Assembly (NCBI GenBank): GCA_029881255.1
Contig: JAOUMY010000002.1
Location: 62,001-126,000, forward strand
DNA length: 64,000 nt
DNA from: Gammaproteobacteria bacterium
GTDB taxonomy: Bacteria; Pseudomonadota; Gammaproteobacteria; S012-40
Direction: 5' to 3'
Below the pieces are notes generated by a model. The model was not told the DNA's origin, ran no database searches, and worked only from the letters and a program-made list of their open reading frames with translations. Below, one piece after another: positions 46,744 through 63,401 of this stretch. The number at the start of each line of letters is the position of its first letter. The stretch's first letter is position 1. The position numbers and the translations under genes are program-made.

Positions 46744-46808
46744 TTAATGTCGCTGCACAGGTATTATCCCGTAGCCCCATACGGGGGGTTACCCCCCCGT
46801 ATGTGGGG
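46744..46808 (-). promoter_or_regulatory. two CCCC-N6-GGGG boxes and -10 element of the giant surface protein
   Basis: CCCC-ATACGG-GGGG (46775-46788) and CCCC-GTATGT-GGGG (46795-46808) are adjacent; together they also form a near-perfect 11-bp hairpin (46778-46803). On the minus strand a -10-like CATTAA (46749-46744) follows the first box by 25 nt, and the start codon is about 90 bp from the box centre. The same arrangement is found at three other loci. Confidence 0.5.
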
Positions 46809-46873
46809 TATTAGAGGCGTATTTCAAAAGGAAAGTCTGTACAGGTAAAACTTGCAATTGTGAACTAACGGAA

Positions 46874-47287
46874 TTAATCGAGCGATTTGTGGAAACAGGT
46901 ATTATTCCAACCGGATTCAAGTCGTGTGTAGGTGATACTGGAAACGAGACGTCGTATCAGGGTCAGCCCCAGCCCGCCTTCAGCGGAACCGGAGACCGAC
47001 ATTTCTTTTTCTGCAGTCGTGGTCGAACTGATGTCAAATGCTACTCCACTGTCTTGAATACAGATATGTACATCTCGTGGATCAAATGAAATCGAGATTT
47101 TAACCTCCCCGAATTCACCCGTATAACCATGCGTAATGATATTGGTCAACCACTCATCAACGACGAGTACCAGACTGGCAGTCAGTTCCTCATCGAGACC
47201 ATGCGCCAGCAGCGTATCATTGACGTACTGGCGCATATCATGAAGATCGTCCAGACCTATCTGTCTTTCCAGGCTGGTAGATAACAT
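46874..47287 (-). CDS. RsbW/SpoIIAB-like anti-sigma factor ATPase
   Basis: A 137-residue GHKL-fold serine kinase/anti-sigma factor. It shows the N box VVDEWLTNIITHGY, G1 DSGVAFD and the G2 GGLGLTLIRRLVS. It would phosphorylate the STAS protein encoded 14 bp upstream and bind its sigma factor or other partner when the STAS protein is phosphorylated. It is the last of three genes (phosphatase, STAS, kinase), a complete partner-switching set. No sigma factor gene is nearby, so the target is unknown. Confidence 0.88.
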   Translation of the reverse strand: MLSTSLERQIGLDDLHDMRQYVNDTLLAHGLDEELTASLVLVVDEWLTNIITHGYTGEFGEVKISISFDPRDVHICIQDSGVAFDISSTTTAEKEMSVSGSAEGGLGLTLIRRLVSSITYTRLESGWNNTCFHKSLD

Positions 47288-47301
47288 TTTCTGTCTTATG
47301 C

Positions 47302-47655
47302 CTAGAATGAATCCAGTGCTTCATCCAGATTTGTGTATACCTGAAAGAACTGATCAAAGCCCAAGGTCTTTAAAATTCGCGCCACGGCGTCCGAAGGATT
47401 GAGTAACTTAACTGCGCCACCCTCGCCTTTGACGGCATTTGAAATGCTGTGAAATGCGCGTAGACCGGCACTTCCCATATAGCTCACACCTGACAGGTCT
47501 ACCAGGAAATTACTGGCGCCATCTGCAACCAGTTCATTTGCCCGGCTCTCAAGCTCTTTATAGTTGCTGCCATCGAGCTCGCCCTTTAGATGTAAAACAG
47601 TAACGTGTTCGCTGCCCTTTTGCTCAAGAACCGTAATATGTAAAGCAGAACTCAT
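47302..47655 (-). CDS. anti-anti-sigma factor (STAS domain)
   Basis: A 117-residue single STAS domain. Key segment: LVDLSGVSYMGSAGLRAFHSI, where the serine in MGSAG occupies the phosphorylation position of SpoIIAA/RsbV. ATG 47655 is preferred over an upstream TTG because GGGAG lies at good spacing. When dephosphorylated by the PP2C protein (47686-48933, 30 bp upstream) it would release the target of the RsbW-like kinase. Confidence 0.9.
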   Translation of the reverse strand: MSSALHITVLEQKGSEHVTVLHLKGELDGSNYKELESRANELVADGASNFLVDLSGVSYMGSAGLRAFHSISNAVKGEGGAVKLLNPSDAVARILKTLGFDQFFQVYTNLDEALDSF

Positions 47656-47685
47656 AATCACTCCCAAACGTATATGTGAATTGTC

Positions 47686-48933
47686 TTATCCATTTTGCCG
47701 ACGACCGACCGCAAGTATGGTGATGTCGTCATATTGATTCGAACTGCCGACAAATCCATTGAGAGCAGAGATAAGCTCAGACACCATGACTTTCGAGTCT
47801 GTGCCTGATTGGTGGACTATATCAAAAACCCTGTCCTCCCCAAATAGTTCGCTCTGGTTATTGCGAGCCTCGGTCAGGCCGTCACTAAAGCCTATCAACA
47901 TGTCCCCCTTGGCAAGCGTCCCTTTTGCCGTAGCATATTTGGCTTGTTCAAAAAGGCCTACCACCGGACCGGTTGTTTCCAGACGCTCGCAAGCACCATT
48001 TGTTCTACGAACAATTGGCGCCTCATGTCCTGCATTGATATACGTAAACTCACCCTTTTGGGGATCAATCAAAGCGAAGAACATCGACGCGAACATGCTA
48101 TCCCGCCCATGCGTCGTTGCCACATAATGATTCACCAGCTGAACGCTGTACACCAGAATCTCTTCATCACTGGGTTTATTGCTTGCATCGGGGCCGACGA
48201 CGTCGAATGAAAGAGCACTGGATCGCAACAGACTTCTAAAAAGTGTCATGAAAAGCGCTGCACCCACTCCCTTGTCACAAACATCGCCAACGACAACGCC
48301 AAACTTGTCGACGGATGTGATCTTGAAATAGTCATAGAAATCACCAGCAACTTCTCGTGCCGCCTGGAAATGGGCTTCAATCTCCCAGCCATCGACGTTC
48401 AGCTTTTCCGCAGGTAAAAATCCCCGCTGTATGCGTCGACCGATATCCAGCTCATGCTGGAGGAGCTTCACCTTGACCGCCCGACTGACCGCTTCGCTGA
48501 CAAACTGTGCTTCGTGATTACACAGCCCCTGTATGATTGAGCGCGCGGCATCAGGCTGATCCTTGATGGCGGCATACAGGGAGTCCTGATGAACGCTGTA
48601 GAGTACGCTATCCTTATTGGCCGTAATAGACGCCGTCCGCTGTTGTGGAGAAAGCGCCGCAATCTCACCGAACATTGCCCCTTTATCCAGGCGCGCGATA
48701 TCGACGTTGCCGTCATGGACTCTGACCTCACCTTCGACCAGGAAAAACATGGTGTCTCCCTGTTCACCTTTCTCCACGATTCGGCTACCGGCAGGGACGT
48801 TTCTGGTCTCAACCGCCTCGGCCAGACGCGTGAGCAGCGTGTCTGAGGCATATTGCAGGAAGTGTGTGCGTCGAAGATTGGCGATTTTGTCGTCTATTCT
48901 GCTGAGCTGCGGTTCTTCTATTATCTGGTCCAT
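47686..48933 (-). CDS. SpoIIE-type PP2C phosphatase with N-terminal cyclic-nucleotide-binding domain
   Basis: A 415-residue phosphatase. Residues about 20-135 form a cNMP-binding (CAP_ED) domain with the phosphate-binding cassette-like FGEIAALSPQQRTASI, including the Arg that contacts the cyclic phosphate. A linker helix leads to the SpoIIE domain (about 190-412) with metal-binding aspartates in VAGDFYDYF, VVVGDVCDKGVGAALFM, GFSDGLTEARN and the terminal QYDDITILAVGRR. ATG 48933 has GGAG upstream and is chosen over the ATG at 48960. It would dephosphorylate the STAS protein in response to cAMP, cGMP or a related ligand; this ties the module to the CRP-type system seen at 12.6 kb, which is inference. 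Confidence 0.9.
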   Translation of the reverse strand: MDQIIEEPQLSRIDDKIANLRRTHFLQYASDTLLTRLAEAVETRNVPAGSRIVEKGEQGDTMFFLVEGEVRVHDGNVDIARLDKGAMFGEIAALSPQQRTASITANKDSVLYSVHQDSLYAAIKDQPDAARSIIQGLCNHEAQFVSEAVSRAVKVKLLQHELDIGRRIQRGFLPAEKLNVDGWEIEAHFQAAREVAGDFYDYFKITSVDKFGVVVGDVCDKGVGAALFMTLFRSLLRSSALSFDVVGPDASNKPSDEEILVYSVQLVNHYVATTHGRDSMFASMFFALIDPQKGEFTYINAGHEAPIVRRTNGACERLETTGPVVGLFEQAKYATAKGTLAKGDMLIGFSDGLTEARNNQSELFGEDRVFDIVHQSGTDSKVMVSELISALNGFVGSSNQYDDITILAVGRRQNG

Positions 48934-49187
48934 CTTGACTCCATCGTTCCGGGATGACATTTGGGACCATACTCTAGAGCAGTGTCTTTATCGCAGGCTT
49001 ATGTCGAGCGAGCTATCTTATCATAAGGAATACCGGCCATCCCCCGACAAAAACTGTCCATAAACAGACTGTATGGTCTGTTGAGCTAGTCGAGGGTGAC
49101 AAACCGAATTTCGCCTCCACACTAAAGCTCAGTTTTAACGATTGCTTGAGTGCAAAAATTTCAATTAAGAAAATCTAATTGCCCTCC

Positions 49188-49231
49188 CCCCCACTCAGGG
49201 GTGCGCTCAGAAATCTGTTTGCCGACATGTA
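49188..49231 (+). promoter_or_regulatory. CCCC-N6-GGGG box and -10 element of the 49284 operon
   Basis: CCCC-CACTCA-GGGG at 49188-49201, then a -10-like CATGTA at 49226-49231 (24 nt after the box). The start codon at 49284 lies about 90 bp from the box centre. The element sits in the 350-bp divergent spacer shared with the phosphatase gene, so it could also affect that gene. Confidence 0.5.
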
Positions 49232-49283
49232 GTCATTGAGAAGTCAGCAACTATTTTATCCGAACATATAGGGAACCTTTCCA

Positions 49284-50582
49284 ATGATTAGATCTTTGAG
49301 TTTCGTAGCGATGCTATTGTCCGCGGCCACAGTGAGTGCCGCACCTCCACTTCCTGACGTCAAGGAAGCGCTGAAAATTATCAAATCCAAAAACTACCAC
49401 ATCTTTTCCGCCAAGCAGTTCAAGGTAAAGCCCGAACAATTAAAGGTGGAACTGGTGAAGCCACAGGGTGCCCAAAATGGCGTTCAGCTGGAACATTCCA
49501 AAGTTGGCAAATTGTTGACCGGCTGGCCCAAAGACCAGGCCATTATCACCTACAAATTCATCAGCCCGAAAGACAAAACAGGTCAATGGTTTGAGCAACC
49601 AATTGGCGTGCGATATATGCGCACATCCTGCCCGACAGTTGTCGAGTGCCAGTTGCTGGACGAGTGGTATGTCGCCGAGGTTTTCCAGTACTCGGTCAAT
49701 ATCCGTGGCGCAACGAGCATGGGCAACGACAGCCAGGCTGCGTATATGAGGGAGGCGCTGGAGGCCTATCGCAACGCAAAAAGCCAACCCTGGGCGGATT
49801 TAAAAAATGTGATTCGCTTCTATCCAGAGACGCTGGAATATGACGCCAAGTCGCTTAACATGAGCATGAAAGAACGTCGCTTTACGGTGGCTATGGAAGC
49901 GGATCTTGCTCGCTTCGAATCCGATGATTTTGTGTTCAAGACGATTGAAAAAACCACTATCGAAATGACTATCAATGTAGAGAAAGACAACAGTGGAAGC
50001 GAAAAGGCCACATTCAATATGGTCAAGTTCTATCCCAAGGAAAAAGGGCGTCCTGCTGGCGATGAAATGTATGAAACTTTTGAAACTGCGGGATATGAAA
50101 AACTGGCCAACGGGACTGTCAAGCGCGACTTTCCAGTCGCATCCTCCAAGGCTTTCGGTCAATTCGCAAACAACGTATTTTCCGACCTAAAGTCATTCTA
50201 TGAGGGTGGCGATGGCGCGCATGACAAACTATCTGCCTACTTTGATCCAGCCGCGCTTAGTCGACTAAGCGACGCGAAAAACAAGGCTCACGACCTCAAG
50301 GTAGAACTGGAGGTCAACGGTGATATCCAGACCAAATTCAGTAAGTACAGCGCTCTCAAAGGAAATGATAGCGACATATTCTTCGTCTTCGGTCTCCTGC
50401 ACAAAACTCGTGACAAGAAAAAGATGGTGGAACTGGGTTACTGGAAAACATCCGACCCTGTTATACAGATCGGAAAAACGGGAAGCTATCAGGAAAGACT
50501 TGGTCTGCACGCCCTTTTAAAAGACGGCAAGTGGGTAGTGAGCAAAATCAGCACTAGCACTGCACCACCTTACCTGCGCTAG
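49284..50582 (+). CDS. secreted protein of unknown function, 432 aa
   Basis: An exported protein: signal peptide about 1-20 (ending VSAAPP), no other membrane segment. The mature part is mixed alpha/beta, Lys-rich, with two cysteines (TSCPTVVECQ) likely bonded. No family was recognised. GGGAACC gives a modest ribosome-binding site. It is the first gene of a four-gene run (49284, 50599, 50978, 52109) that ends before a terminator at 52712, with a CCCC-N6-GGGG box in its promoter. It likely acts in the periplasm beside the two membrane proteins of the operon. Confidence 0.7.
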   Translation: MIRSLSFVAMLLSAATVSAAPPLPDVKEALKIIKSKNYHIFSAKQFKVKPEQLKVELVKPQGAQNGVQLEHSKVGKLLTGWPKDQAIITYKFISPKDKTGQWFEQPIGVRYMRTSCPTVVECQLLDEWYVAEVFQYSVNIRGATSMGNDSQAAYMREALEAYRNAKSQPWADLKNVIRFYPETLEYDAKSLNMSMKERRFTVAMEADLARFESDDFVFKTIEKTTIEMTINVEKDNSGSEKATFNMVKFYPKEKGRPAGDEMYETFETAGYEKLANGTVKRDFPVASSKAFGQFANNVFSDLKSFYEGGDGAHDKLSAYFDPAALSRLSDAKNKAHDLKVELEVNGDIQTKFSKYSALKGNDSDIFFVFGLLHKTRDKKKMVELGYWKTSDPVIQIGKTGSYQERLGLHALLKDGKWVVSKISTSTAPPYLR

Positions 50583-50598
50583 TTTTCAAGGGGGTATC

Positions 50599-50985
50599 AT
50601 GGAACTGTCAAAAAATGAAACCCTGGTTGGCAAGTGGGGGGTGAATTTTGTCCCCCCGCAGGCCAGCGGTATCTGGATCGTCAAACTGTTCATTACCGAC
50701 AAACGCATTTTAATGAAAGTCGAACATGATCTGTCTATCGGTGCGGCTGTGGGCACCTATGTACTCACTGGCATGGATTCCGGCGAAAACGGTAGCATTT
50801 ATGAATTAGACGTAGCCGATATCCTTTCTGTTGAGCAAACCGAAAACTTTTTCATGAAGGGCTTTAATCTGTTAATGCGCAGCGGTGAAGTATATACATT
50901 CAAGCGTGGCTTGCTCGGCGTAAACAGGATCATTAAGGCAATCGAAAGCGTAAGTCGTCGTGGAGGTCAAATAGACCGTGAATAG
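50599..50985 (+). CDS. GRAM/PH-like domain protein, 128 aa
   Basis: A small cytoplasmic protein starting 16 bp after the previous stop with an excellent ribosome-binding site (AAGGGGGT). The layout (WIVKLFITDKRILMKV, a central loop, then YELDVADILSVEQTENF and YTFKRGLLGVNRIIKAIES) is that of bacterial GRAM/PH-like domains, which bind membranes or partners. Its end overlaps the next gene by 8 bp, so the two are coupled. Role: probably a peripheral partner of the membrane protein encoded next. Confidence 0.6.
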   Translation: MELSKNETLVGKWGVNFVPPQASGIWIVKLFITDKRILMKVEHDLSIGAAVGTYVLTGMDSGENGSIYELDVADILSVEQTENFFMKGFNLLMRSGEVYTFKRGLLGVNRIIKAIESVSRRGGQIDRE

Positions 50986-52084
50986 AGGCGGAATTTATGT
51001 CGTCTTAATGACGGCATTTTTCTTTATTCTTCAAATGAGTTTTGAGATTTACTTCATTGGTAATGAAGAGTTTGAACGTACCAACAACTCCGAGTACAAG
51101 GTGGGAATCCAACAACTATTTGTCGGGCTTCTGATATTCATTTTTTCTTCCAGATGGATGTGGAAAACGTGGGACACCGACGATGGGAGCGGCATATTTG
51201 CATTCATCGTGATCCCGATGTTTCTTTATACTCCACTGGTTTCGATTCCCGGCATTACCCGCATGTGGCGTAGCTACGACGCTGACCCACTCTATTATAA
51301 AGTCTGGATCTCCTGGGGTCTGGTGATATTGCTTCTAGCCATTTTGTTTTCCCTGGAGTGGTTTGCCCTCAGGGTAAAGAATGTATTGAACGGGAACGCA
51401 TTCAGGGATACGCCTCTGCGATCGTCGCATACGAGCCTGCATCAGATATTGGAAAGGAAGAAGAACAAGAACGACCAGGGACAAAAGCAACTTGAAAAGT
51501 TGGGAGAAGAAGTAGACGGAGAGCTCCCAGACGATTTTAATCTCTATGACGGGAAACAAAGCCAACCTTCCGGCCACTTTGATATCGCCCTTTATCATTG
51601 TCAAAAGTGCGGATGCGATCTCATACTTCGCTGTCACTCATGCAATAACAATTTTGGATTTTATACCGACGGTCACGGCCTATTCTACTGTTCCCACTGT
51701 AAAAACGAACTGAAGTATGCCTGTAACAACTTCGACAGGAACCATACTCTGTCTCTGAAAAAACTTCTTGTTATCCCATCATCGTCGTATCTCAAGAGAC
51801 TCCATGACTATCTTGTCGAAGTGCGCGAGGAAATTGAGAGTCATGGCGACCAGGGATACAAATCGGCATTGCTGAATCAGGGTGAGCTCTATAAAAGCCT
51901 GTCATGGATACTGATGGTAATGCATTATCCGTCCGACAATCTCAAATATTTCTACAGCATGGGAAGTTTCTGGCAAGAGTTGCTCAAAGATACAAAGCAG
52001 ACGCTACGAGTAATGTTCTATCTCGGTGCACCAGTTGTACTGTATCTGTACGTACTTTATATGCTCACGTTTCCTGAAATATAG
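50978..52084 (+). CDS. membrane protein with zinc-ribbon motifs
   Basis: A 368-residue protein starting at GTG 50978, which overlaps the GRAM gene. About four N-terminal helices (about 7-30, 44-60, 75-95 and 108-130) are followed by a cytoplasmic region of about 210 residues holding three CxxC pairs (CQKCGC, CHSC, CSHC) spaced like one or two zinc ribbons, and a final hydrophobic pair near the end (VVLYLYVLYMLTF). This suggests a membrane-anchored zinc-ribbon protein. No family was identified. Neighbours: GRAM-like protein upstream, another membrane protein 24 bp downstream. Confidence 0.65.
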   Translation: MNRGGIYVVLMTAFFFILQMSFEIYFIGNEEFERTNNSEYKVGIQQLFVGLLIFIFSSRWMWKTWDTDDGSGIFAFIVIPMFLYTPLVSIPGITRMWRSYDADPLYYKVWISWGLVILLLAILFSLEWFALRVKNVLNGNAFRDTPLRSSHTSLHQILERKKNKNDQGQKQLEKLGEEVDGELPDDFNLYDGKQSQPSGHFDIALYHCQKCGCDLILRCHSCNNNFGFYTDGHGLFYCSHCKNELKYACNNFDRNHTLSLKKLLVIPSSSYLKRLHDYLVEVREEIESHGDQGYKSALLNQGELYKSLSWILMVMHYPSDNLKYFYSMGSFWQELLKDTKQTLRVMFYLGAPVVLYLYVLYMLTFPEI

Positions 52085-52108
52085 AAAATCCTATAGGAGT
52101 CTAACGCT

Positions 52109-52615
52109 ATGAAAAAAATCTCACCCTCCCACGAACAGATTAGAGAAGCCAATATTGAACCTAACCAGCAGGCCATGGGAAAAATGCATCCATGGTTTGT
52201 CTACGGATGTATAGTTGTCGTCGTGTTTTTCGCCGCCTATTCTTTTTACCGATATAACGTACTCGGTGAGGATATCGGGCTGGCCATGACAAGAGGGTTC
52301 AGAGAGGCGTTTTTACTTTTTACCCTGAACGCACTGTTTCTCGCGTCGACGATGGTCTTTGCGCTGATACTATTTGCCTTTTTCATCTACACTTCAATCG
52401 GGTTTTACTCAGAAGTTGAGACCGATATAGTGATGATTCTGACACTGACCGCAGTGCAGTTCGCTGCGGTATTTGGATGGAAGTATCTCATGCTCTGGTA
52501 CTTTGATTTCCAGCAATGGACGATCTTCTTCGTCAAAACCACCATCGCGCTGGCGTTCTTGCTGTTTAGCTATGACATTATTATGAACGAGCTTTCATCG
52601 TCTCCGATGTACTAG
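52109..52615 (+). CDS. inner-membrane protein, 168 aa
   Basis: A hydrophobic protein with four membrane helices (about 31-50, 71-95, 103-125 and 138-157) and a short charged N-terminus. It starts 24 bp after the zinc-ribbon membrane gene with TAGGAGTC upstream, so it belongs to the same operon. Family not recognised. It is the last gene before a bidirectional hairpin at 52712-52735. Confidence 0.6.
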   Translation: MKKISPSHEQIREANIEPNQQAMGKMHPWFVYGCIVVVVFFAAYSFYRYNVLGEDIGLAMTRGFREAFLLFTLNALFLASTMVFALILFAFFIYTSIGFYSEVETDIVMILTLTAVQFAAVFGWKYLMLWYFDFQQWTIFFVKTTIALAFLLFSYDIIMNELSSSPMY

Positions 52616-52711
52616 GGAATTTCTTGTTTTGAATTAGATGTCCAGAAAAACAGTCATATCAGAATCAATATTCGATGACGTAAGCCAAAACAATTTTTCG
52701 CACACTAAAGA

Positions 52712-52735
52712 GGCCGTCCCTTCAAAGGGACGGCC
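52712..52735. terminator. bidirectional hairpin terminator
   Basis: GGCCGTCCC (52712-52720) pairs perfectly with GGGACGGCC (52727-52735) around TTCAAA. It sits between two convergent genes (stops at 52615 and 52746) and can serve both strands; U-runs are short. Confidence 0.6.
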
Positions 52736-52745
52736 GATGTTTAGA

Positions 52746-55700
52746 TCACTGACCATACACGACTTGCTTATCTGCAGGAATGTTCACAAAGCTATTCCTT
52801 GCCAGCAAGTCAACACCATAAGTGTTGGCGCCATTATACACCCAAATCCCCATGTCGCCGCTGTTCACAATATCGTTATCGCTGATATTGGCGCCGGAGT
52901 TTGAGCCATACAAGGTTATCGCCGCAGCCTTCTGACCAACCGTACTGCCGGCAAATTCAATGACGCTATTACTGATTCTGTTATCGATAGAATCTGTAAA
53001 TACGAACTGTATGCCACCCCATGCGCCGGGACTTTGGTTCTTGCTGGTAAACACAATCGGGGTATCGGTTTCGCCCACGGCAGAAAACGTACCGTCGCTG
53101 TCTACATTGATATACACATTGCTATCAGCAACCATAGTGACGCCAGGTGAGACGCTTAGTGCGGCACGGATGTTCAGCGTATTACTGTAGTGATAATCCA
53201 CGCCTATCGCCTGCCAAACACTATCCTGTACAAGCTGGTTGTTCGTTATCTCAACTTTGTCGAAGGTATTTCCGGTAAATGACGAACTGTCATTCAGCAC
53301 ATGCACAGAGGAAATCTCAATGCGACCGCTGGCACCTTCGTTTTCAGTAATGCTATTGTTTTCGAACGTTATGATATTGCCGTCACCATAGAAATCAAAT
53401 CCGTAGGCGCCGCTCTTACGCAGAGTGGAATTTTTTACGCTTAAGCGATTTGTCTGATGATAGGTGTAAAGATTGCCATCGCCATTGGTATCGCCTCTTC
53501 CGCCATATTCAATCGTAACGTACTCAAGTGCATTGTTAACGCTATTGGAATCGTAGAAACCGAGTCCGTTCCAGGTACCCGGGGTTGGGCTGACGGCAGT
53601 CAATAGTATCGGCCTGGATTCCGTCCCAATTGCACGCAGACTGCCTGTCGATTCAACCCGCATACTGCCATTGGTTTCAAATATTAGCTTGGCACCTGCA
53701 GCAAGCACCAGATCTGTCTCTACGATTATCGTGCCGCTACGATACGGAACGCCAATCGCACGCCATGTCTGAGGATCGCTTATCCTTTGGTTGCTGCCAG
53801 TCGCAATATAGTCTTTGGTATTTCCGGCATAGACACTCTCGGTATCGAGCTTGCCAAACAAATTCGCTGGCAACTTTGCGGTGGTGTCGTTGTTGTATAG
53901 CCTGTTGCCGGAAAATGCATCGAGCAAAGTTCCATCGTAAAGCTCAAGTCCATAAGCACTACTGTGACGCAGATGCAAATGCCTCAACTGCAAACGTGTC
54001 GTACCACCAAAACTGACAATATTGGCAGTACCGTTGCGACTGTTTCCTGCGTATTCAATATAGGCATGACTCAACTGATTTCGAGCATTGTTGGAACCAT
54101 AGAAAATAATGCCATTCCAGTATCCCGGTGTATGACTGGCCGCCGTCATGAAAATAGGCTTTTGCGCCTGTCCATTCGCGGTCAGCGAACCATCACTCTG
54201 CACGCGTATTCCGGCATTGCTGTTAAAAATTAGCGTCACGCCAGGCAGTATTGAGAGATTGGCGTTATTCTCGACACTGATATCCCGCGTAACGACATTA
54301 CAAGGCGCTGAAATCGTCGTATTAACCCGTATGTCGCTATCGATCACGCCATCGCAACTTCTATTGGCGAGGCGAACAATAGTAGAACTCACGCCCAATG
54401 ATGCATTTCCTGCCAGGGAGTCCAGCGTAATCATAAAAGTTTCATCCGCCTCATTGAGTTTGTCTCCTCTCACAGGAATGACAATTTCCTTGTTTTGCGC
54501 GTCTCCTGCTGCCCAACTCAGAGTGCCGGAAACACTTTCATAGTCCTCGCCCGCTATCGCCGATACATCAGCTGTCTGAAAATTAACGCTAAGCGCAGAT
54601 GACGCATCACCACTGCGGATAACCTGTACCAGCACACCGCCATCGGCTTCAGTCGCGCTGTATGATGCATTGGCAAAACCCACTTTTGCCGAGCTCGATT
54701 GACTGTCGTTAAAAGTAAAATGTGCGCGATTGGCCGGTGCCTCACGATTTCCAGCTCTGTCCACGCCAAAGAAACGTAACTCTGTATCCTGTTCCAGCCG
54801 GAATGCGCTGGTATACACGGTTGAGTTCAATCCCGGTTCGCTTCCATCGAGAGTGTAATGAATCGCACGACACCCGGAACCGTAACCGTCATCACATCGC
54901 AAACTGACCAGTATCGGCGCAGTGTAACTACCTCCAACGGGTGAAACGCTGCTAACGGGAGGACGCGTATCGGCCGGATCTTCGCTCAGCGTTGTAGCGC
55001 AAACGAAATCACTCATTGCAGATTCATTACCCACCGCGTCGACTGCGCTGACTCCATAGCAATACTGTGTATCAGGACGCAGCTCGTTGTCCTCAAATCC
55101 TGTGGCGAACACACTGGCGATTCGACTCGCGGTTTCATCGGCCAAACGCCGATAGATGGTATAAGCGCGTACATCGTTACTTGGCGATGCCGTCCATTGC
55201 AAAGACAGGCTACTTGAGGTGTGAGATGTCACGCTGAGCTGACTAATCGGCGCAGGCGCTTGCGTATCGTTGTCATTTTGAGCAGTGACACAGGCTTCGG
55301 CGCTTTTTTCACTTCGATTTCCTGCGCCATCGACAGCTTCTACCACATAACAATATTGCACCCCGGAAGTCAGTCCACTATCGACAAATACCGGATAAGG
55401 CGTGGCGCCAAGTAACACGTCGTCTCGATAGACATTGTAGGCTGCAACGCCGATGTTATCCGTTGCCACATTCCACAAAACAAACGTTTTTCCCTGTCCT
55501 GCATTAAGCGCAACCACGTCTTGTACTTGCTGAGGCGCCAGCGCATCTTCGTCAGCAAGACTGTTCCCCAGATCCAGGCGTAGCAACGTACCTTGTATGT
55601 TCAGTTGTGGATTTATGATGTTCACGGTGACGTTGTAGCGGTTATAACTAACGTGAAGCTGATCAAGCACCTGATCAAAGCCGGTACCGTCAGCATCGAA

Positions 55701-56216
55701 TTCCGAGTTTAGAAAATCAAAATCACTTGCTACACCGAGTTCATCGTACAAGCTTGCCAACAATGCTTCTAGCGCTACAACATTCGCATCGATTGCCTCT
55801 CTGGCCGGTGCGTTCACAATCGTTTCGTCTGACTCAAAATCCTGATCAATATCTCTATCCTGCACAGCAAACCAATTGCGTAATACGAGATCCGAGATGG
55901 GGTGAATATTTGTCACGCCACCGGCATAGGCAATACTGTAAAGACTTTTTGTTTCCGTCGTCTTTGCGCGGAGTAAAAATGGCGGTGCCATGTTTTGTAG
56001 CGTTACCGCGTAGTGACCGTCGTTGTCTGTAGTCACTGACTGACGTCTACCGTTGACGTCACGTATGACAACTTCCGTATTGCCGAGCGCGGCGCCAACC
56101 GCAACAGTTCCTCTCAAACCGGTTCCATCGATACCGTCACCTCCTCCACAACCCTGGAACAAGGCGATGATCACCCCTGATAAAAATACTTTCTTACATC
56201 CGTTTAAGAGTCTCAT
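52746..56216 (-). CDS. giant lipoprotein: FN3, chitobiase-like, Calx-beta and beta-helix domains
   Basis: An 1156-residue lipoprotein with lipobox LFQGC (Cys23, next residue Gly, so outer-membrane sorting). After a carboxypeptidase-regulatory-like domain (about 30-110) come two FN3 domains (about 245-410), a chitobiase C-terminal-like domain (about 415-505; IHYTLDGSEPGLNSTVY) and a Calx-beta domain (about 515-625; ADETFMITLDSLAG). A long right-handed beta-helix follows with three related blocks, each with a strand such as GVTLIFNSNAGIRVQSDG, then PIFMTAASHTPGYWNGI, and ending in IEYAG-like turns. The architecture suggests a polysaccharide-binding or -degrading surface protein. It starts 4 bp after the DUF6502 stop and is coupled to it. 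Confidence 0.88.
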   Translation of the reverse strand: MRLLNGCKKVFLSGVIIALFQGCGGGDGIDGTGLRGTVAVGAALGNTEVVIRDVNGRRQSVTTDNDGHYAVTLQNMAPPFLLRAKTTETKSLYSIAYAGGVTNIHPISDLVLRNWFAVQDRDIDQDFESDETIVNAPAREAIDANVVALEALLASLYDELGVASDFDFLNSEFDADGTGFDQVLDQLHVSYNRYNVTVNIINPQLNIQGTLLRLDLGNSLADEDALAPQQVQDVVALNAGQGKTFVLWNVATDNIGVAAYNVYRDDVLLGATPYPVFVDSGLTSGVQYCYVVEAVDGAGNRSEKSAEACVTAQNDNDTQAPAPISQLSVTSHTSSSLSLQWTASPSNDVRAYTIYRRLADETASRIASVFATGFEDNELRPDTQYCYGVSAVDAVGNESAMSDFVCATTLSEDPADTRPPVSSVSPVGGSYTAPILVSLRCDDGYGSGCRAIHYTLDGSEPGLNSTVYTSAFRLEQDTELRFFGVDRAGNREAPANRAHFTFNDSQSSSAKVGFANASYSATEADGGVLVQVIRSGDASSALSVNFQTADVSAIAGEDYESVSGTLSWAAGDAQNKEIVIPVRGDKLNEADETFMITLDSLAGNASLGVSSTIVRLANRSCDGVIDSDIRVNTTISAPCNVVTRDISVENNANLSILPGVTLIFNSNAGIRVQSDGSLTANGQAQKPIFMTAASHTPGYWNGIIFYGSNNARNQLSHAYIEYAGNSRNGTANIVSFGGTTRLQLRHLHLRHSSAYGLELYDGTLLDAFSGNRLYNNDTTAKLPANLFGKLDTESVYAGNTKDYIATGSNQRISDPQTWRAIGVPYRSGTIIVETDLVLAAGAKLIFETNGSMRVESTGSLRAIGTESRPILLTAVSPTPGTWNGLGFYDSNSVNNALEYVTIEYGGRGDTNGDGNLYTYHQTNRLSVKNSTLRKSGAYGFDFYGDGNIITFENNSITENEGASGRIEISSVHVLNDSSSFTGNTFDKVEITNNQLVQDSVWQAIGVDYHYSNTLNIRAALSVSPGVTMVADSNVYINVDSDGTFSAVGETDTPIVFTSKNQSPGAWGGIQFVFTDSIDNRISNSVIEFAGSTVGQKAAAITLYGSNSGANISDNDIVNSGDMGIWVYNGANTYGVDLLARNSFVNIPADKQVVYGQ

Positions 56217-56219
56217 TAC

Positions 56220-57035
56220 CTAATCCTCTTGTTTATCGTTCTGGAAAAAATAAACTCCCACGCCAACTCTCCCCTTTGTCTCATCATTGTCGGCAGAGAT
56301 ATTTTTCTTGCGCTCCGCCAACCATTGATCAAACTCCACCAGCAAATCCATAGATCGCTGATGACTAAATTCTCTGAATTCTTCGATGATGCTGAGCGGC
56401 ATCTCGTGATATGTCACCTGACGCTGAAAACGTGCATCTTTCTCATCCTGTGCAATATTGTGAACCGCTGTATCCAGATGATCGGCGACATGTTTGGATA
56501 GCACCCGTACCAGTTCTGGTTCATCCTTGCGCGGGATATAGCCCTTGTTCAGCAAACGAACATACTGTTTATCAACTCTCTCTACAGCGCCAACGCGAAG
56601 CAACTCATCAAGCACTGCGCGAGAACTGATATCACCGCTATAGCGCGTCACCAGTTCATCAAAACTGCCCGGCTCACCACGCAACGCCAATATTCTGGGT
56701 TGCCCTGTCGAATCGACGAATTCCGCATCCTGCATCCAGCCGCTAATGACGCGTGTTGCGCGATTTAATGGTCCACGCGTCTGTGGCGCCTCATCGGCAG
56801 GAACCTCACTCAGGCGCACCACTTCCTTACGACTCAAGCCCGTGATCACCGCAACATGGGAATGGGTCGGCGCACGACCGGGAATCGCGAAATCTGTTTT
56901 CGCCACATGCACGTAGGAACGGCGGGCGATCTCGGAAAATTCGCTGTGTGACATGTCGAAGCGCAGCAGCAGCCGGACCAGTGGGTTCAGCATATTAAAA
57001 ACCGCCTTGCTTAGGGTTGTTTTGATATCTCTCAT
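56220..57035 (-). CDS. DUF6502 family protein, putative DNA-binding regulator
   Basis: A 271-residue protein with the DUF6502 layout: a helical N-terminus (KAVFNMLNPLVRLLLRFDMSHSEFSEIARRSYV) followed by HVAVITGLSRKEVVRLSEV. The region looks like two helix-turn-helix units, so DNA binding is plausible though not established for the family. The C-terminal half is charged and helical. ATG 57035 is chosen because it is placed exactly for the promoter at 57043-57071 (leaderless mRNA); an upstream TTG at 57071 coincides with that promoter's -35 box. It is followed 4 bp later by the giant beta-helix lipoprotein, suggesting autoregulation of both genes. Confidence 0.78.
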   Translation of the reverse strand: MRDIKTTLSKAVFNMLNPLVRLLLRFDMSHSEFSEIARRSYVHVAKTDFAIPGRAPTHSHVAVITGLSRKEVVRLSEVPADEAPQTRGPLNRATRVISGWMQDAEFVDSTGQPRILALRGEPGSFDELVTRYSGDISSRAVLDELLRVGAVERVDKQYVRLLNKGYIPRKDEPELVRVLSKHVADHLDTAVHNIAQDEKDARFQRQVTYHEMPLSIIEEFREFSHQRSMDLLVEFDQWLAERKKNISADNDETKGRVGVGVYFFQNDKQED

Positions 57036-57099
57036 ATGCGGGAAAATAATCCCACGTGTGAGATTTGTCAATATTTCACGGGATTATTTTCCCGCATAT
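57034..57099 (-). promoter_or_regulatory. promoter inside a 20-bp perfect inverted repeat
   Basis: Arms at 57034-57053 and 57080-57099 are exact reverse complements (20 bp each, 26 bp apart). Each arm holds a local dyad GGGA-N6-TCCC (57040-57053 and 57080-57093), centres 40 bp apart. On the minus strand TTGACA (57071-57066), a 17-nt spacer and TATTTT (57048-57043) form a near-consensus promoter whose predicted start falls on the ATG at 57035. The promoter, operator and start codon overlap, so bound repressor would block transcription of the DUF6502-lipoprotein operon. Confidence 0.7.
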
Positions 57100-57123
57100 C
57101 TTGACCTGTACGATAGACAATAC

Positions 57124-57327: not shown

Positions 57328-57335
57328 GGAGTGCT

Positions 57336-58472
57336 ATGCGCTTCCTCATTCTCACCGCAATCTCGACATTATTGATGACGCCATATTCTGCATGGTGCGC
57401 GCAGACCATCGATGCGGATGGATTTGATCGTCTCTCTCAATCGGGCGTAAGCATCGACCGTGCGTGGAAGAATCTAGGGCCATCCCTCGCCGGTGGAGAT
57501 TTTAATTTTTTGTTTGATATTGGCGGCTACAGTACAGATTCCGTGTTTGCGATTCCTACCGATACTGGTCAGGAGCAACGAGTAGTTGATCAAGTGCAGG
57601 GGCTTTTTTCTCTTGCCTTGAATATCAAGGATCTGAGTGTCGGAGGCTTTCTTATTGGAGAGCAACTTCAACTCAACACTAATACAGACACCGCAATGCC
57701 CTCTTGCGATAGCCCGGACTTTCAACGACAGTGGCGAAAATCAGATTTCGTGACAGGAATTCGTACAGCTTATCGTGAAAAATTTAGATTCATTTTTGGT
57801 TACCACGTTCTCGAAAACCCGATAGTTAACACCGACGGCTCAGGAAACAGGGTGTTCTCCTCTACCTTAAACCCAGATACTAATTGTCCTGTGACTTATA
57901 CCAGCACACATGAATACTACAGCGAGTTTTCACTCAACGGGTACCAGTTACGAAGCGCAATTAGTAACTGGGTACTGCAACGTCTAGGTCTGTCGCGGAG
58001 ATTTGGCTTACCAGTAGAATTCGGTTCGCTCGAACCCGAAGTGAAATATGTTCGCGCTAGCAAAACCATTCAGATTGGCCTTGTTTATCGTGACGACAAG
58101 TATCTGGTCAATCACGACCTTCAGCTTGAAGCCTATATACATGCTAATTCAGATGAGTTCAGCATTGATGGTCTATTGTTTACCTACCGTTTACCATTGC
58201 TTAGCTGGAAAAAGTATTGGGGCAACACCAACAAGCGAAACATTCTCGTCTGGTCGGGAGACAAAGGAGGAATCAGTTTAGACGTCGAGGCCTCATACTC
58301 GAATGAAGTATTTTCCAACATGCTCGGATACTCCTGGCGCTTTACGGTTAAAGAATTTTTTCTATTTGATGAAGTACGCTTTGGCGGCTCACGTAATCAC
58401 TATCCGATACTACTACGTTTGCCATTACGCAATGAAACCTTGAGCTATATGGAAATGTCAGTTCGCTTCTAA
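57336..58472 (+). CDS. outer-membrane or periplasmic beta-rich protein, 378 aa
   Basis: AAGGAGTGCT precedes ATG 57336. The signal peptide (about 1-21, ending AWCAQT) is followed by a beta-strand-rich protein with repeated aromatic residues and a terminal phenylalanine (MEMSVRF), typical of outer-membrane barrels. Cysteines at PSCDSP and NCPVTY might bond. No family was recognised. It stands in tandem behind the possible 67-aa secreted ORF and is divergent from the DUF6502 operon. Confidence 0.65.
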   Translation: MRFLILTAISTLLMTPYSAWCAQTIDADGFDRLSQSGVSIDRAWKNLGPSLAGGDFNFLFDIGGYSTDSVFAIPTDTGQEQRVVDQVQGLFSLALNIKDLSVGGFLIGEQLQLNTNTDTAMPSCDSPDFQRQWRKSDFVTGIRTAYREKFRFIFGYHVLENPIVNTDGSGNRVFSSTLNPDTNCPVTYTSTHEYYSEFSLNGYQLRSAISNWVLQRLGLSRRFGLPVEFGSLEPEVKYVRASKTIQIGLVYRDDKYLVNHDLQLEAYIHANSDEFSIDGLLFTYRLPLLSWKKYWGNTNKRNILVWSGDKGGISLDVEASYSNEVFSNMLGYSWRFTVKEFFLFDEVRFGGSRNHYPILLRLPLRNETLSYMEMSVRF

Positions 58473-58653
58473 GTCGCCACTCCCAGTCACTTTAGTAAGA
58501 CGTGGTTCGACGGAAAGTTCTCTTTAATGCATTGACCAGGGTTATTCACGACACTCGCTATTCGAGGCAATGTCACAATCATTTGGCACACTCGAGCGGA
58601 ATCTGAAATAATGCCTGGCGGGCAACCAATAGACCGGAACCACGGACGACACT

Positions 58654-59997
58654 ATGGAAAACGACAAACTGGGAAAATCAGTAGCAATAATTGGTGCCAG
58701 CTATTCTGGACTGCTGGCTGCCAATGTTCTTTCCCCCTATTTTGACAAGGTAACCTTGATAGACAGAGACGACATCCCGTTAGGAACAATCAACACCCAT
58801 CGTCGCTATACACCTCAGTCGTATCATACTCACGTCCTGCTCTCGGGCGGCTTGCGGGCGCTGGAAGATATCCTGCCCGGCATACGCGAACGACTACTAA
58901 AGGAAGGCTCAATCGTCTCCGACGCGCTAGCCAATGTGCGTTCTCTCTTTACCAAGGGTTGGCTACCGGTAACGCGAAGCGAGATCGAAATATTTTCTCA
59001 GTCACGCAGCCTGCTGGAGGGAGTCATCAGACAAATGACAGTGGAGCGGGTAAAAAATCTGATACTCAAACCGCGCACGCGTTTAAGTCGTCTGGTGCTC
59101 AGTCCACTCGGGGACCACACCCTTGCCCTTGAAGACGAAAACGGCACGGGTCAATATACGTTCGATTTTGTTGTCGACGCACGTGGGCAGACGAGCGATA
59201 TTTCCGGCCTGCTTGATTCAATTGGAATCAGCACCCGTAGCATTCATATGAAGCCAAACATCACCTATATCACCGCCTGGCTACCAAGTGTCAATACGCC
59301 GGAGAACACCAATGGCCTGATCATTCTTCCCAGAGTAACTGAAGGCCCTACTGGGGGAGGATTATTCAAGATTGAAAATGGACAGACTATGTTTACCCTC
59401 TACGGGTATAACAAAAACATTCCACCGCGTGAATGGATCGATATTCTCTCATGCAGTCATGGACTATTGTCAGACATGCTTTATCAGGCGGTAAAAGACG
59501 CCGCTCCTGATCGAATCGATGTCTTCAAAAAGTCGGAGACTAAGATAAACTACTACGCGAAGACAGGAGACTGGCCTCACAATATTTTAGTTGTAGGAGA
59601 CGCCGTTTCATCTTTTAATCCGGTATATGGACAGGGTATGGCGACCAGCGCAATATCCTTACAGAAACTTAAACAGGGACTGGGAACGGCGAAACCCATA
59701 GCCAGTCTTCAACGGGATATCACACGTATTTATGAACAGGCCTGGTCGATTTCGGGTAACGAAGATTTACGTTGGCCAGACACGCAAACAGATTATCGCC
59801 AATTCGGTATCACGGCCATTCATCGTATTGGCGACATGATAAATCGCGCCGCAACAAAAAACCGAGATGTGGCCATTGCGTACATAAAAGTCTTACACAT
59901 GTTGGAACCTCCCGAAACGATGTTTCGTCCGGATTTACTGCTCAAAATATTCGCTAACCAGAAGACGCCCGCCGAGGCAGAGCCGTGTTTGTTTTAG
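58654..59997 (+). CDS. FAD-dependent monooxygenase-like oxidoreductase
   Basis: A 447-residue flavoprotein of the PHBH/squalene-epoxidase-like superfamily. The N-terminal Rossmann motif is VAIIGASYSGLLAANVL, followed by the acidic end of the second strand (TLIDRDDIP). A mid-protein DFVVDARGQTSDISGLL matches the family's 'DG' region, and the C-terminal FAD motif is NILVVGDAVSSFNPVYGQGMA. It is likely an NAD(P)H-dependent hydroxylase or epoxidase; the substrate is unknown. No signal peptide. A single gene followed by a convergent kinase; no biosynthetic cluster is adjacent. Confidence 0.85.
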   Translation: MENDKLGKSVAIIGASYSGLLAANVLSPYFDKVTLIDRDDIPLGTINTHRRYTPQSYHTHVLLSGGLRALEDILPGIRERLLKEGSIVSDALANVRSLFTKGWLPVTRSEIEIFSQSRSLLEGVIRQMTVERVKNLILKPRTRLSRLVLSPLGDHTLALEDENGTGQYTFDFVVDARGQTSDISGLLDSIGISTRSIHMKPNITYITAWLPSVNTPENTNGLIILPRVTEGPTGGGLFKIENGQTMFTLYGYNKNIPPREWIDILSCSHGLLSDMLYQAVKDAAPDRIDVFKKSETKINYYAKTGDWPHNILVVGDAVSSFNPVYGQGMATSAISLQKLKQGLGTAKPIASLQRDITRIYEQAWSISGNEDLRWPDTQTDYRQFGITAIHRIGDMINRAATKNRDVAIAYIKVLHMLEPPETMFRPDLLLKIFANQKTPAEAEPCLF

Positions 59998-60115
59998 TAT
60001 TCCTAGCTGTGTACAATCAACTTTTAGTGAGTTTCTCATTTGCAATTACTAGAACCAAAGCAGAATTTTTCCCCGATTAAATTTAGACAGACATAAAGTT
60101 TAGGTAGCTAACACA

Positions 60116-62248
60116 CTATTCTTCACATATCTGCATTCGCACACAGGTCTTTTCTGCCACTCTTTCCCACAACACTTCTCCACCCAACTCATCTATACGT
60201 GTGCGTATATTGTTTAAACCCTTCCCTTTGATCCATTGCTGTGGCGAGCCAGACTTCCCATTGTCCGAAAAATTGATCTGAAAACGGTTTTCAGTAGAGA
60301 CCATTTCGATAACGACTTCGTTCGCTTGCGCATGCCTAATAGCGTTGGTAAGTAACTCGCTGAGAATATAGTAAATATTAAACTGCTGACGTGGGGTAAG
60401 TGAAATTGCACTCTCGTCAACAAGCTTCCAGATGACTGACAATCGACCTATTTCTGCTCTTTTTTCAAACTCATCTTGCCACTCAAGCATCCAGACTTTA
60501 ATGCTTTTCTTTCCGTTATCGTCAATCGTATAGATAATAGCTCTCAAGGTCTTTAAACAGTCTCTGACGCGTTCCCCAATATCTGTCCCGTCCGATAACT
60601 GCGCAATCGCCAGCAGCTTTCCGCCTAGTTCATCATGTAAGTCGCGCATAATACGTTTGCGCTCCTCCTCTCTTACACGCTCATGATGCCATTGAAGAGA
60701 AAGTAGCTCTTTTCCGATGTCATATATCTGTTGCAACAAGCCAAGGTCGTCGGCATTGAACAAATTCCGTCCACCATTTTTCAAATTCATGATAAGCCGA
60801 GTATCAATGCCTGGCACCTTGGTAGACAAGGCCAAACCCTCGTCTAATAACAAATGCCCTCCATCACTGTTTGCACGGTCTATCGATACAGGCCTGAACA
60901 AGGCTGACAATAAAGATCGCCAATTGTTCTCAACTTCATCTCGATTTCTATTCATGACGATACTGTTCAGTATCACCGGCACCGCATGCAAGATGCCGAC
61001 ACTATTTCGTGTACGTGAAAGAACAAACTGCCGCAGCGGCAAGTATACCCAGGCAACCAGAATAATACTGGAGAAGAATGCCAGGTTGCGACTGACATCC
61101 AGTACATACAACATAAACAGATCAATTAGCAAAAATAAGAAACCCAAGCCTATCCACGCAATGACGGGTTGCCAATATCGGTCAATTTCCATCAATCGAT
61201 AGCGGGATACGCCAATCGCGACCCCTACATAAAACAAAAACATTAGAGAAAAAACCACTGATGCATCCACCTTCGGTACATTTCCAAGCATGACCGGAAC
61301 AAAATAGATCGAGGTAGCAACACCCGTAGTAAAAAACGCAAAAAGCAGCGTCCAACGTATCGCCGTACGAGAAAGCGGGTTGTTTTTCGCCATCACCCAT
61401 TGAACAATCATGAGGACGGTCATCATTACAAGCATCAACACATTGCTGTGAATATGGTAGGCATGTAGCGGCCATTCATATATCTGCCCAGTCTGATTTA
61501 CCCACAGTCCCATCATAATCAGATACACCGTTATGACGTATCTGCGTCCAAATAGCTTTGTTGGGTAACAAGAAAATATTACCAGCAGCGAATACACAAA
61601 AAGAAGACTACCAAACGTACCAAGTACCGACAGTAGATAAAATAGTGTCGGATCTAGCGTTATCTCACGAGAGATGTAAATCGATGTGCTATAGACAATA
61701 ATGTATGTACCTACACCAAGGAACAAGAAATACCTGGCGAAATATTCTTTTCTTCTAAAACTCCACACCATAACCGAAATTATAAGAGCACATATTGCAA
61801 TAAGCTGCGTCAACCAGAATCGAAATGGGATCTTCATCAGTATGGAACCTGAGTTCCATTTTTTCAGCGAAACGGTATTCCCATCGATCAAAACAAGTTC
61901 TGGACTATTCATAAGTATTCTGTAGAACATCGTATGGTCTACAAAAAACTGGTTATACTGCTGATAGCTAGGCAATTGATCAGGAATCTCCAGCATATTT
62001 TTCACTGTCGTTTCCATACGCAGGTCAGAACCTCGCAAGGCAAGCACTCTCTTTCCGACAAGATCTTCAGAATAGGAGCCTGCCACGTCCACTACTTGAA
62101 CCTGTTTACCTAGATCACTATTGACAACAGACAATCGTACGCCTGTCCATGGAATCCATGTTGCCAATACATAGATGGCTATCAACAACATCAGAACAGA
62201 TACTAGAAAGACAAAATTTACGAGTTGTATAGGTGATTGCGTTTTCAT
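60116..62248 (-). CDS. ComP/NarL-type multi-pass sensor histidine kinase
   Basis: A 710-residue inner-membrane kinase. A first helix (about 8-28), an extracytoplasmic PDZ-like loop of about 110 residues and then eight to ten further helices (to about 415) form the sensor. The kinase core is HisKA_3: EERKRIMRDLHDELGGKL with His538, and an ATPase with N box LSELLTNAIRHA, G1 FSDNGKSG and G2 GKGLNNIRTRI. ATG 62248 is chosen; the upstream frame to 62416 is hydrophilic and overlaps the divergent promoter region. It faces the LuxR-type regulator (start 62522) and is surely its cognate partner. The topology resembles ComP of Bacillus, so a peptide or other extracellular cue is possible. Confidence 0.9.
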   Translation of the reverse strand: MKTQSPIQLVNFVFLVSVLMLLIAIYVLATWIPWTGVRLSVVNSDLGKQVQVVDVAGSYSEDLVGKRVLALRGSDLRMETTVKNMLEIPDQLPSYQQYNQFFVDHTMFYRILMNSPELVLIDGNTVSLKKWNSGSILMKIPFRFWLTQLIAICALIISVMVWSFRRKEYFARYFLFLGVGTYIIVYSTSIYISREITLDPTLFYLLSVLGTFGSLLFVYSLLVIFSCYPTKLFGRRYVITVYLIMMGLWVNQTGQIYEWPLHAYHIHSNVLMLVMMTVLMIVQWVMAKNNPLSRTAIRWTLLFAFFTTGVATSIYFVPVMLGNVPKVDASVVFSLMFLFYVGVAIGVSRYRLMEIDRYWQPVIAWIGLGFLFLLIDLFMLYVLDVSRNLAFFSSIILVAWVYLPLRQFVLSRTRNSVGILHAVPVILNSIVMNRNRDEVENNWRSLLSALFRPVSIDRANSDGGHLLLDEGLALSTKVPGIDTRLIMNLKNGGRNLFNADDLGLLQQIYDIGKELLSLQWHHERVREEERKRIMRDLHDELGGKLLAIAQLSDGTDIGERVRDCLKTLRAIIYTIDDNGKKSIKVWMLEWQDEFEKRAEIGRLSVIWKLVDESAISLTPRQQFNIYYILSELLTNAIRHAQANEVVIEMVSTENRFQINFSDNGKSGSPQQWIKGKGLNNIRTRIDELGGEVLWERVAEKTCVRMQICEE

Positions 62249-62429
62249 GAAAAACTCACTACTCGATTGCTGTTTAACAAGGATAGTAACCGGTTTTTGG
62301 CAGCGAGAGAATAATGCAAAAGATGTCGCTCTTATACCAAGACGTTGACAACTTGTTTTCCGATTCCTGCGTGGTGAAGTATGGTCAGCAGTAGACACCT
62401 CAACGTTGATGAGCACTGGACTTCTCCAC

Positions 62430-62473
62430 CCCCTATACAGGGGGGGAATAACTTGCCTTCTTCTGGCTATTCT
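62430..62473 (+). promoter_or_regulatory. CCCC-N6-GGGG box and -10 element of the LuxR regulator
   Basis: CCCC-TATACA-GGGG at 62430-62443, then TATTCT at 62468-62473, 24 nt on; the ATG at 62522 is about 85 bp from the box centre. It lies in the 273-bp divergent spacer with the kinase. This suggests that the regulator controls its own gene. Confidence 0.55.
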
Positions 62474-62521
62474 TTTATTAATTACATAGTATCGTTATAC
62501 CCAATAGTTTTAAGGTTTGAA

Positions 62522-63154
62522 ATGAAATCAGCCCTGGTACTGGAAGATCACGACACAACCCGTTTGTGGTTGCAGTCGATTATTTCGGAAACACTCTCAA
62601 TTGATGACATCGCGCTGACGACCACGCTTGAGCAGGCGAAACTGACATTGCTTGAGCGCGAATTTGATCTGGCCCTGGTAGATATCAATCTGCCTGACGG
62701 GGATGGGACTGAGCTTGTCCGATTGTTAGCGGAGTCACATAAAAACACCCATACCATCATGGTCACGATGTATGATGACGACCAACACTTGTTCGAGGCA
62801 TTAAAGGCGGGGGCAAAAGGTTACTTGCTGAAGGACCAAAGCAGAAACGAGATCGCGCAGCGCCTAAAGGGAATAATCTCCGGAGAACCAGCACTGACCC
62901 CAAGCATCTCGCGACGCATTATTGCGCATTTCAATAAAGAAGTTCGGCCACAACAACATCACACACTTAGCGAAAGAGAAGTTGAAGTGTTGGTGCTTGT
63001 AGCAAAAGGTTTTCAACGGGCCGAGATTTCCGAACTGCTTTGTATAACAACCAACACCGCCTCCGGCTACATAAAAAATATTTACAAGAAACTTGAGGTG
63101 TCATCTCGCTCCGAAGCAGCGCTGGAGGCCGTGCGGCTTGGATTGATCAACTGA
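62522..63154 (+). CDS. LuxR/NarL-family response regulator
   Basis: A 210-residue regulator. The receiver (about 1-120) starts KSALVLEDHDT and has Asp54 (LALVDINLPDG), the switch Thr in TIMVTMYDDD and Lys in GYLLKDQSRN. A C-terminal GerE/LuxR helix-turn-helix (about 145-208) reads LSEREVEVLVLVAKGFQRAEISELL then TASGYIKNIYKKLEVSSRSEAALEA. ATG 62522 follows AAGG and gives a normal length; an upstream frame from 62381 is not supported. Paired with the divergent kinase at 60116-62248. Candidate binder of the four-locus CCCC-N6-GGGG box. Confidence 0.93.
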   Translation: MKSALVLEDHDTTRLWLQSIISETLSIDDIALTTTLEQAKLTLLEREFDLALVDINLPDGDGTELVRLLAESHKNTHTIMVTMYDDDQHLFEALKAGAKGYLLKDQSRNEIAQRLKGIISGEPALTPSISRRIIAHFNKEVRPQQHHTLSEREVEVLVLVAKGFQRAEISELLCITTNTASGYIKNIYKKLEVSSRSEAALEAVRLGLIN

Positions 63155-63355
63155 AAAACTATACGATTGTCATTAGCCCGATTTTTTCAACGAAGCCAAT
63201 TCGCATGGATATAAGTCGTCAATCTAACTGGCGATCGATAACGCCAAACCATTTCACTCCTGTCCAAGTTTTTCGTCAACGCCCTGACTTTGGGACTTCT
63301 TTCTCCTATCAGCGACTATCCCGAAGCAGGGTATGCTTCCAACAGAATTCCCTAC

Positions 63356-63401
63356 CCCCCAGATAGGGGATGCGAATTCCCCGGGGTCTACCGACTATGT
63401 A
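63356..63401 (+). promoter_or_regulatory. CCCC-N6-GGGG box and -10 element of the 63465 gene
   Basis: CCCC-CAGATA-GGGG at 63356-63369, then TATGTA at 63396-63401, 26 nt on. The start codon at 63465 is about 103 bp from the box centre. The remaining part of the 63155-63464 gap shows a small symmetric CCCCGGGG (63379-63386) but no gene. Confidence 0.5.

Follow-up and report, generated by a model that had tools for sequence, protein, structure and literature searches.

Does the short inverted repeat CCCC-N6-GGGG, which stands in front of several surface-protein genes in a stretch of a gammaproteobacterial genome, mark a regulon, and which protein reads it? The stretch, 64,000 bases of contig JAOUMY010000002.1, is referred to below as the window, and the repeat as the box. 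The first-pass annotation had proposed a local regulon controlled by the LuxR-type response regulator encoded at 62522. We find that the box very probably serves as operator for one clade of NarL/FixJ-type regulators; the clade includes the 62522 regulator and a paralogue, and its members would activate surface-protein genes and regulate their own synthesis. The earlier reading was substantially right and applies well beyond the window. From the patterns described below we infer that the regulator is phosphorylated, binds the box, acts as an activator and not as a repressor, and feeds back on its own gene.

Exactly five exact copies of the box are present in the window, at 46775, 46795, 49188, 62430 and 63356, compared with a mean of 0.30 in shuffled sequences; none of 100 shuffles reached five. 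All five are intergenic, and the exact motif count thus bears out the positions and the intergenic placement first reported for them. The coding flag on the 62430 box is an artefact of an open reading frame (ORF) over-extended to 62381; the true start of the regulator gene is at 62522 and is preceded by AAGG, which resembles a ribosome-binding site. The giant surface protein gene is preceded on the minus strand by a pair of boxes, the promoter-proximal one at 46775..46788 and the upstream one at 46795..46808. Jointly the pair makes one long inverted repeat (CCCCATACGGGGGGTTACCCCCCCGTATGTGGGG), and the single boxes elsewhere differ from it. The box at 49188..49201 (plus strand) lies ahead of the operon starting at 49284, and that at 63356..63369 (plus strand) ahead of a secreted protein gene. 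The fifth copy, CCCC-TATACA-GGGG at 62430..62443 (no strand assigned), is located in the spacer between the divergently transcribed kinase and regulator genes, 182 bp from the start of the kinase gene (60116-62248).

The whole genome (4,967,022 bases in 44 contigs) contains 22 sites of the box versus 20 of the reversed control pattern, so the bare motif occurs at chance level genome-wide. Six of the 22, though, fall within 22.4 kb (C2:108775-131197; binomial p about 6e-10). The sixth member of this cluster, CCCCTATATAGGGG at C2:131184 (69184 in window numbering, past the window end), is a perfect palindrome. The remaining 16 sites are coding, in terminator hairpins (L004, L005, L238), in a tRNA (L015) or in scattered intergenic positions, and none of them has a convincing promoter arrangement. 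The expected preference for spacers over genes was accordingly found for the boxes of the cluster and not for the motif elsewhere: the enrichment in spacers belongs to the cluster and not to the bare motif. The latter was rejected as a genome-wide regulon marker, as its counts equal those of the reversed control both here and in relatives; a large regulon was rejected as well, plausible sites being few per genome. Some matches to the pattern are probably due to chance, for example those inside long ORFs (L243, L244).

An alternative is that the boxes serve no regulator and are terminators, hairpins or dispersed-repeat copies; in its favour, three of the copies found elsewhere in the genome are terminators, and a long stem could form from the 46775/46795 pair. 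We consider this explanation hardly credible. The window boxes are followed by no T-run on the transcribed strand, the N6 spacer and the flanks vary between the copies, no RNA element was matched in Rfam, and the boxes have a conserved spacing to the -10 hexamer and a link to one regulator clade, both described below. Terminators, tRNA and RNA elements were thus set aside: the genome holds three terminator copies and one in a tRNA, none of them in the cluster.

The geometry of the downstream promoters suggests how the box could act. Each of the -10-like hexamers named in the first-pass annotation is present 24-26 nucleotides (nt) past its box: CATTAA (46744..46749, minus strand) 25 nt after the 46775 box on that strand, CATGTA (49226..49231, plus strand) 24 nt past the 49188 box, TATTCT (62468..62473, plus strand) exactly 24 nt past the 62430 box, and TATGTA (63396..63401, plus strand) 26 nt past the 63356 box. 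Only TATTCT would pass alone as a sigma-70 -10 element, and a consensus scan at the window boxes revealed no good -35/-10 promoter. Over 92 loci, the distance from the box to a TAnnnT hexamer has a sharp peak at exactly 24 nt (12 sites versus about 0.9 expected; Poisson p about 3e-10), with no comparable peak for the control motifs GGGG-N6-CCCC, CCCC-N6-CCCC and GGGG-N6-GGGG. With the -10 hexamer taken as -12 to -7, the centre of the box is at -43.5, which supports the proposed class II geometry with a box centred at -43 to -45. Class II-like activation is the most economical interpretation because the promoters have no recognisable -35 element and the spacing is fixed.

NarL-type regulators are able to activate or repress, and a box centred at -43.5 overlaps the -35 region, which a bound regulator might occlude. 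Repression from the box nevertheless seems unlikely to us: the missing -35 element fits dependence on an activator, a repressor has no need of the fixed box-to--10 spacing seen here, and the geometry matches that of a NarL-activated promoter. In the engineered Escherichia coli promoter ogt1052, NarL activates from a single site whose centre is at -44.5, 32 bp upstream of the -10 element, and this site suffices by itself (PMC9314961). The corresponding distance for our box is 31 bp.

The candidate binder, encoded at 62522..63154 (plus strand), is a NarL/FixJ-type response regulator of 210 amino acids. Pfam models identify a Response_reg domain (7e-21) followed by a GerE domain (5e-15), and the residues E8, D9, K104 and the phosphoacceptor D54 are intact and invariant in the alignment. 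Its scores remain below the NCBIfam cut-offs for MadR (107.3 of 300 bits), NarL (99.9 of 250) and ErdR (48 of 390), by which it was rejected as a NarL orthologue proper, a member of the MadR family or CrbR/ErdR. The CCC-N6-GGG core of the box is compatible with the 7-2-7 spacing of NarL sites.

The divergent gene at 60116..62248 (minus strand) encodes a histidine kinase of 710 amino acids, HisKA_3 plus HATPase_c (DesK/VraS type), with about ten membrane helices and an N-terminal periplasmic domain. HATPase_c is above its cut-off and HisKA_3 is just short of it (22.2 of 24 bits); the latter is matched by 16 of 22 kinase homologues at E 0.01, H538 and D539 are invariant in the kinase alignment, and the fold of the core is that of DesK/VraS. 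The periplasmic domain alone (113 residues) was modelled with a predicted local distance difference test score of 88. PDZ domains make up most of its structural matches, which are weak (best Z 5.3, root-mean-square deviation 3.2, 77 aligned residues), and Pfam PDZ_2 is matched in just one of the 22 homologues; the assignment of this domain as PDZ-like is weakly supported. Some box-bearing relatives resemble the window kinase in its core alone, an example being L144, which has a 7TMR-DISM match; the sensor part is hence not uniform.

A second divergent pair, paralogous to the first, is located past the right end of the window (C2:128992-131922, or L016:3992-6922), 6.8 kb downstream of the window regulator. 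It comprises a kinase gene (L016:3992-6184, minus strand) and a regulator gene (L016:6293-6922, plus strand), whose product shares 59% identity with the window regulator where the two align, and the CCCCTATATAGGGG box lies in the spacer of the pair. The choice of the 62522 regulator as the obvious binder is favoured by conservation of the box beside related regulators, but this protein is not the sole candidate, because the paralogue has the same box ahead of its gene. The paralogous regulator, or a mixed dimer, could predominate in binding at some of the window boxes or at all of them, so that two kinases feed one regulon through the same operator. We regard this as a serious possibility, somewhat short of an even chance: the box is in the divergent promoter of both pairs, it is a perfect palindrome at the paralogue, and the two regulators are nearly identical around the recognition helix, whereas in other genomes one regulator suffices.

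Assignment of the box to this regulator clade draws on other genomes. Protein searches for relatives of the regulator gave 91 distinct proteins scoring at least 120 bits. The exact box is found within 250 bp before the gene for eight of the 91 and within 250 bp after it for eight; near the same genes the reversed motif occurs neither before nor after, and the coding regions contain no exact box. In distant proteobacteria the box is positioned 62-110 bp ahead of the regulator gene, or directly past it before the next gene. The box-bearing relatives include those from Massilia, Methylophilaceae, a betaproteobacterium, three gammaproteobacterial groups, Bosea and a Sorangium record. In the Methylophilaceae genome the box before the regulator is one base off and an exact copy precedes another gene, in the betaproteobacterium boxes flank the regulator gene on both sides, and in kinase-first operons (L106, L096) the box is ahead of the whole operon. 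The predicted conservation of the box beside orthologues is thereby borne out in several classes, and its position before regulator or kinase genes points to autoregulation. The pooled half-site consensus is CCCCTGWWCAGGGG.

The genes that follow boxes in other genomes encode lipoproteins (L106, L117, L131, L242, L245, L246), PEP-CTERM proteins (L105, L090), a ricin-B lectin-like secreted protein (L095) and other secreted proteins (L104, L144), besides the kinase or regulator itself. The box-linked genes outside the window mostly encode exported or surface proteins.

On the regulator tree (115 rows), boxes are confined to one clade (support 100/99), with 16 of 73 rows having a box versus none of 42 outside (Fisher p 0.0005). 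The box rows are scattered through a clade of Alpha-, Beta- and Gammaproteobacteria and Myxococcota, which fits an old operator that may often have been lost, altered or located elsewhere.

Several observations weigh against the proposed operator role. The loci behind the tree rows are of unequal length, which biases the box count somewhat, and 57 of the 73 clade rows, nearest same-family relatives included, have no exact box in the available DNA; G007 carries just a weaker CCCATATGGG-type repeat. Three of the four window targets have poor -10 hexamers, two of the hexamers being at 25-26 nt. A strict, consensus-based pattern of box plus -10, compared over 369 genomes, is only mildly tied to presence of the regulator (3 of 18 versus 7 of 351 genomes, p 0.009; p 0.06 once the genome of the window is left out). 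Many clade relatives occur in family f207, which belongs to another class, and no exact box was found near them. A looser scan, for the box with a -10 at 23-24 nt over the 369 genomes of the class, was abandoned as swamped by background; the outliers proved to be a repeat dispersed in genome G294 and CRISPR-like (clustered regularly interspaced short palindromic) repeats (G127). The G294 repeat is a CCCCCTAAAGGGGGCTAAA-type element with an AT-rich stretch after it, present in many copies (17 matches in the forward direction).

Homologues on plasmids provide a further comparison: they were collected once the box was already defined, and were not used to define it. The exact box is present in eight of nine alphaproteobacterial loci, compared with one site of the reversed control in about 100 kb; the locus without a box is that of Tistrella. 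In Sagittula, Ponticoccus and Sulfitobacter pontiacus a divergent lipoprotein-SLAM pair flanks the box on one side and the kinase-regulator operon on the other, and in S. alexandrii and strain THAF37 it is ahead of the SLAM gene that precedes this operon. The kinase-regulator operon shares its box with an autotransporter in Hoeflea and with a DUF4214 protein in Pseudosulfitobacter, and in Shinella boxes are downstream of the kinase-regulator pair. The nine loci are not fully independent, since Sagittula and Ponticoccus are close relatives.

Were the box the site of some other regulator that is not linked to these genes, its proximity to them being a coincidence, genomes could show the strict pattern without a member of the clade, as some do at the cut-off used. 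We hold this alternative to be very improbable, as boxes track the neighbourhood of the regulator across several classes of Proteobacteria, in one myxobacterial genome and on plasmids, and do so for one clade only. As to gene content, five of the plasmid kinase-regulator pairs (L256, L258, L259, L260, L265) adjoin a SLAM exporter gene, and three of these loci also encode a Gly-rich lipoprotein with a barrel motif of the GGSFFG...LGPVVGG type; the five represent surface-lipoprotein modules.

The predicted targets in the window begin with a giant secreted protein of 1419 amino acids (42433..46692, minus strand), which has a signal peptide, BNR/YCF48-like and Calx-beta/fn3-like repeats, and a C-terminal membrane segment with a basic tail, suspected to be a rhombosortase-type anchor. 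The secreted protein of 1124 amino acids encoded from 63465 (63465..64000 in the window, plus strand, extending to C2:128839) also ends in a membrane segment and a basic tail. The anchor-like tails of the targets reach no sorting-signal model; a rhombosortase scoring above its cut-off is encoded in the genome (C4:152865-153320), in line with such tails. The first gene of the third predicted target, the 49284 operon, encodes a secreted protein of 432 amino acids without a family match (49284..50582, plus strand). The remaining operon genes (50599..52904, plus strand, gaps of at most 25 nt) encode a soluble-looking protein of 128 amino acids, membrane proteins of 368 and 168 amino acids, and an ORF of 88. 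The claim that all genes linked by the box encode secreted, surface or membrane proteins holds for most of them; the exception is the small protein encoded at 50599-50985, with no obvious signal or membrane segment.

Among the neighbouring genes, that divergent from the 49284 operon (47686-48960, minus strand) encodes a protein with cyclic-nucleotide-binding and SpoIIE phosphatase domains. At 52746-57071 (minus strand) a DUF6502 gene lies 3 bp upstream of a gene for a Calx-beta/fn3/beta-helix lipoprotein of 1156 amino acids; the two form an apparent pair, ahead of which there is no box. Just past the window, L016:14111-14968 encodes a PEP-CTERM-type protein with a VPEINTVALFGLGLLGLAGFIGRRK tail.

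We propose that the membrane kinase senses a signal at the cell envelope and then phosphorylates the neighbouring regulator, a dimer of which would bind the 14-bp inverted repeat. Centred near -43.5, the bound regulator would contact RNA polymerase at a promoter with a -10 but no good -35 element, and would switch on the genes for secreted and surface proteins together with its own gene, in a positive feedback. We speculate that the PDZ-like periplasmic domain of the kinase reads the C-termini of exported proteins or the state of the envelope.

This system resembles NarX/NarL of E. coli (yeaR, ogt) in having a regulator with a REC domain and a LuxR-type helix-turn-helix and an inverted repeat with a CCC-N6-GGG core compatible with the 7-2-7 arrangement. 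It differs in its C4/G4 half-sites, in a kinase with a PDZ-like domain and about ten membrane helices, in surface-protein targets and the proposed autoregulation, and in the score of the regulator against the NarL model, which at about 100 bits is far below the cut-off. VraS/VraR, LiaS/LiaR and DesK/DesR likewise pair a HisKA_3 kinase with a NarL-type regulator; among solved regulators VraR comes closest, and for the kinase core VraS/DesK do. These systems have other membrane sensor modules, Gram-positive hosts, and other operators and regulons. In CrbS/CrbR (MxtR/ErdR) of Pseudomonas, a NarL-type regulator acts through an inverted repeat that was identified by comparative genomics and is needed for activation (PMC5715377). 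That system, in contrast, has the ACTU motif (TACTACCATCGTCGAAT type), acetate genes as targets and an SLC5-STAC hybrid kinase. PrsK/PrsR of exosortase/PEP-CTERM systems is thought to control genes for PEP-CTERM surface proteins (Haft 2006, PMC1569441; PMC9850573), and a PEP-CTERM gene of this kind is reported to be RpoN-dependent (PMC9850573). Here, the regulator is of NarL type, the -10 is sigma-70-like, and the targets extend well beyond PEP-CTERM proteins. A text search for the box strings, in literature covering few subscription journals and hence weak evidence of novelty, found no paper, and no description of NarL-type regulators of PEP-CTERM or SLAM genes was found in mostly non-subscription literature.

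How bacteria stick, aggregate and contact hosts is decided by proteins such as surface lipoproteins, PEP-CTERM proteins, autotransporters and giant adhesin-like proteins, and few of their genes have a known switch. The box and its promoter layout provide an operator readable from sequence for a regulator clade without a described function in several proteobacterial classes. It allows prediction of surface-protein genes in uncultured genomes. Sagittula and Sulfitobacter, with their SLAM/lipoprotein plasmid modules, offer test beds that can be cultured. More tentatively, the clade may belong to a widespread two-component family of Proteobacteria and some Myxococcota, with a PDZ-bearing, multi-helix membrane kinase in many members, that monitors how surface proteins are exported or displayed and tunes their transcription through the one conserved operator at -43.5. 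If so, it would be an outer-surface counterpart of the envelope stress systems, carried also on plasmids with SLAM/lipoprotein and autotransporter genes.

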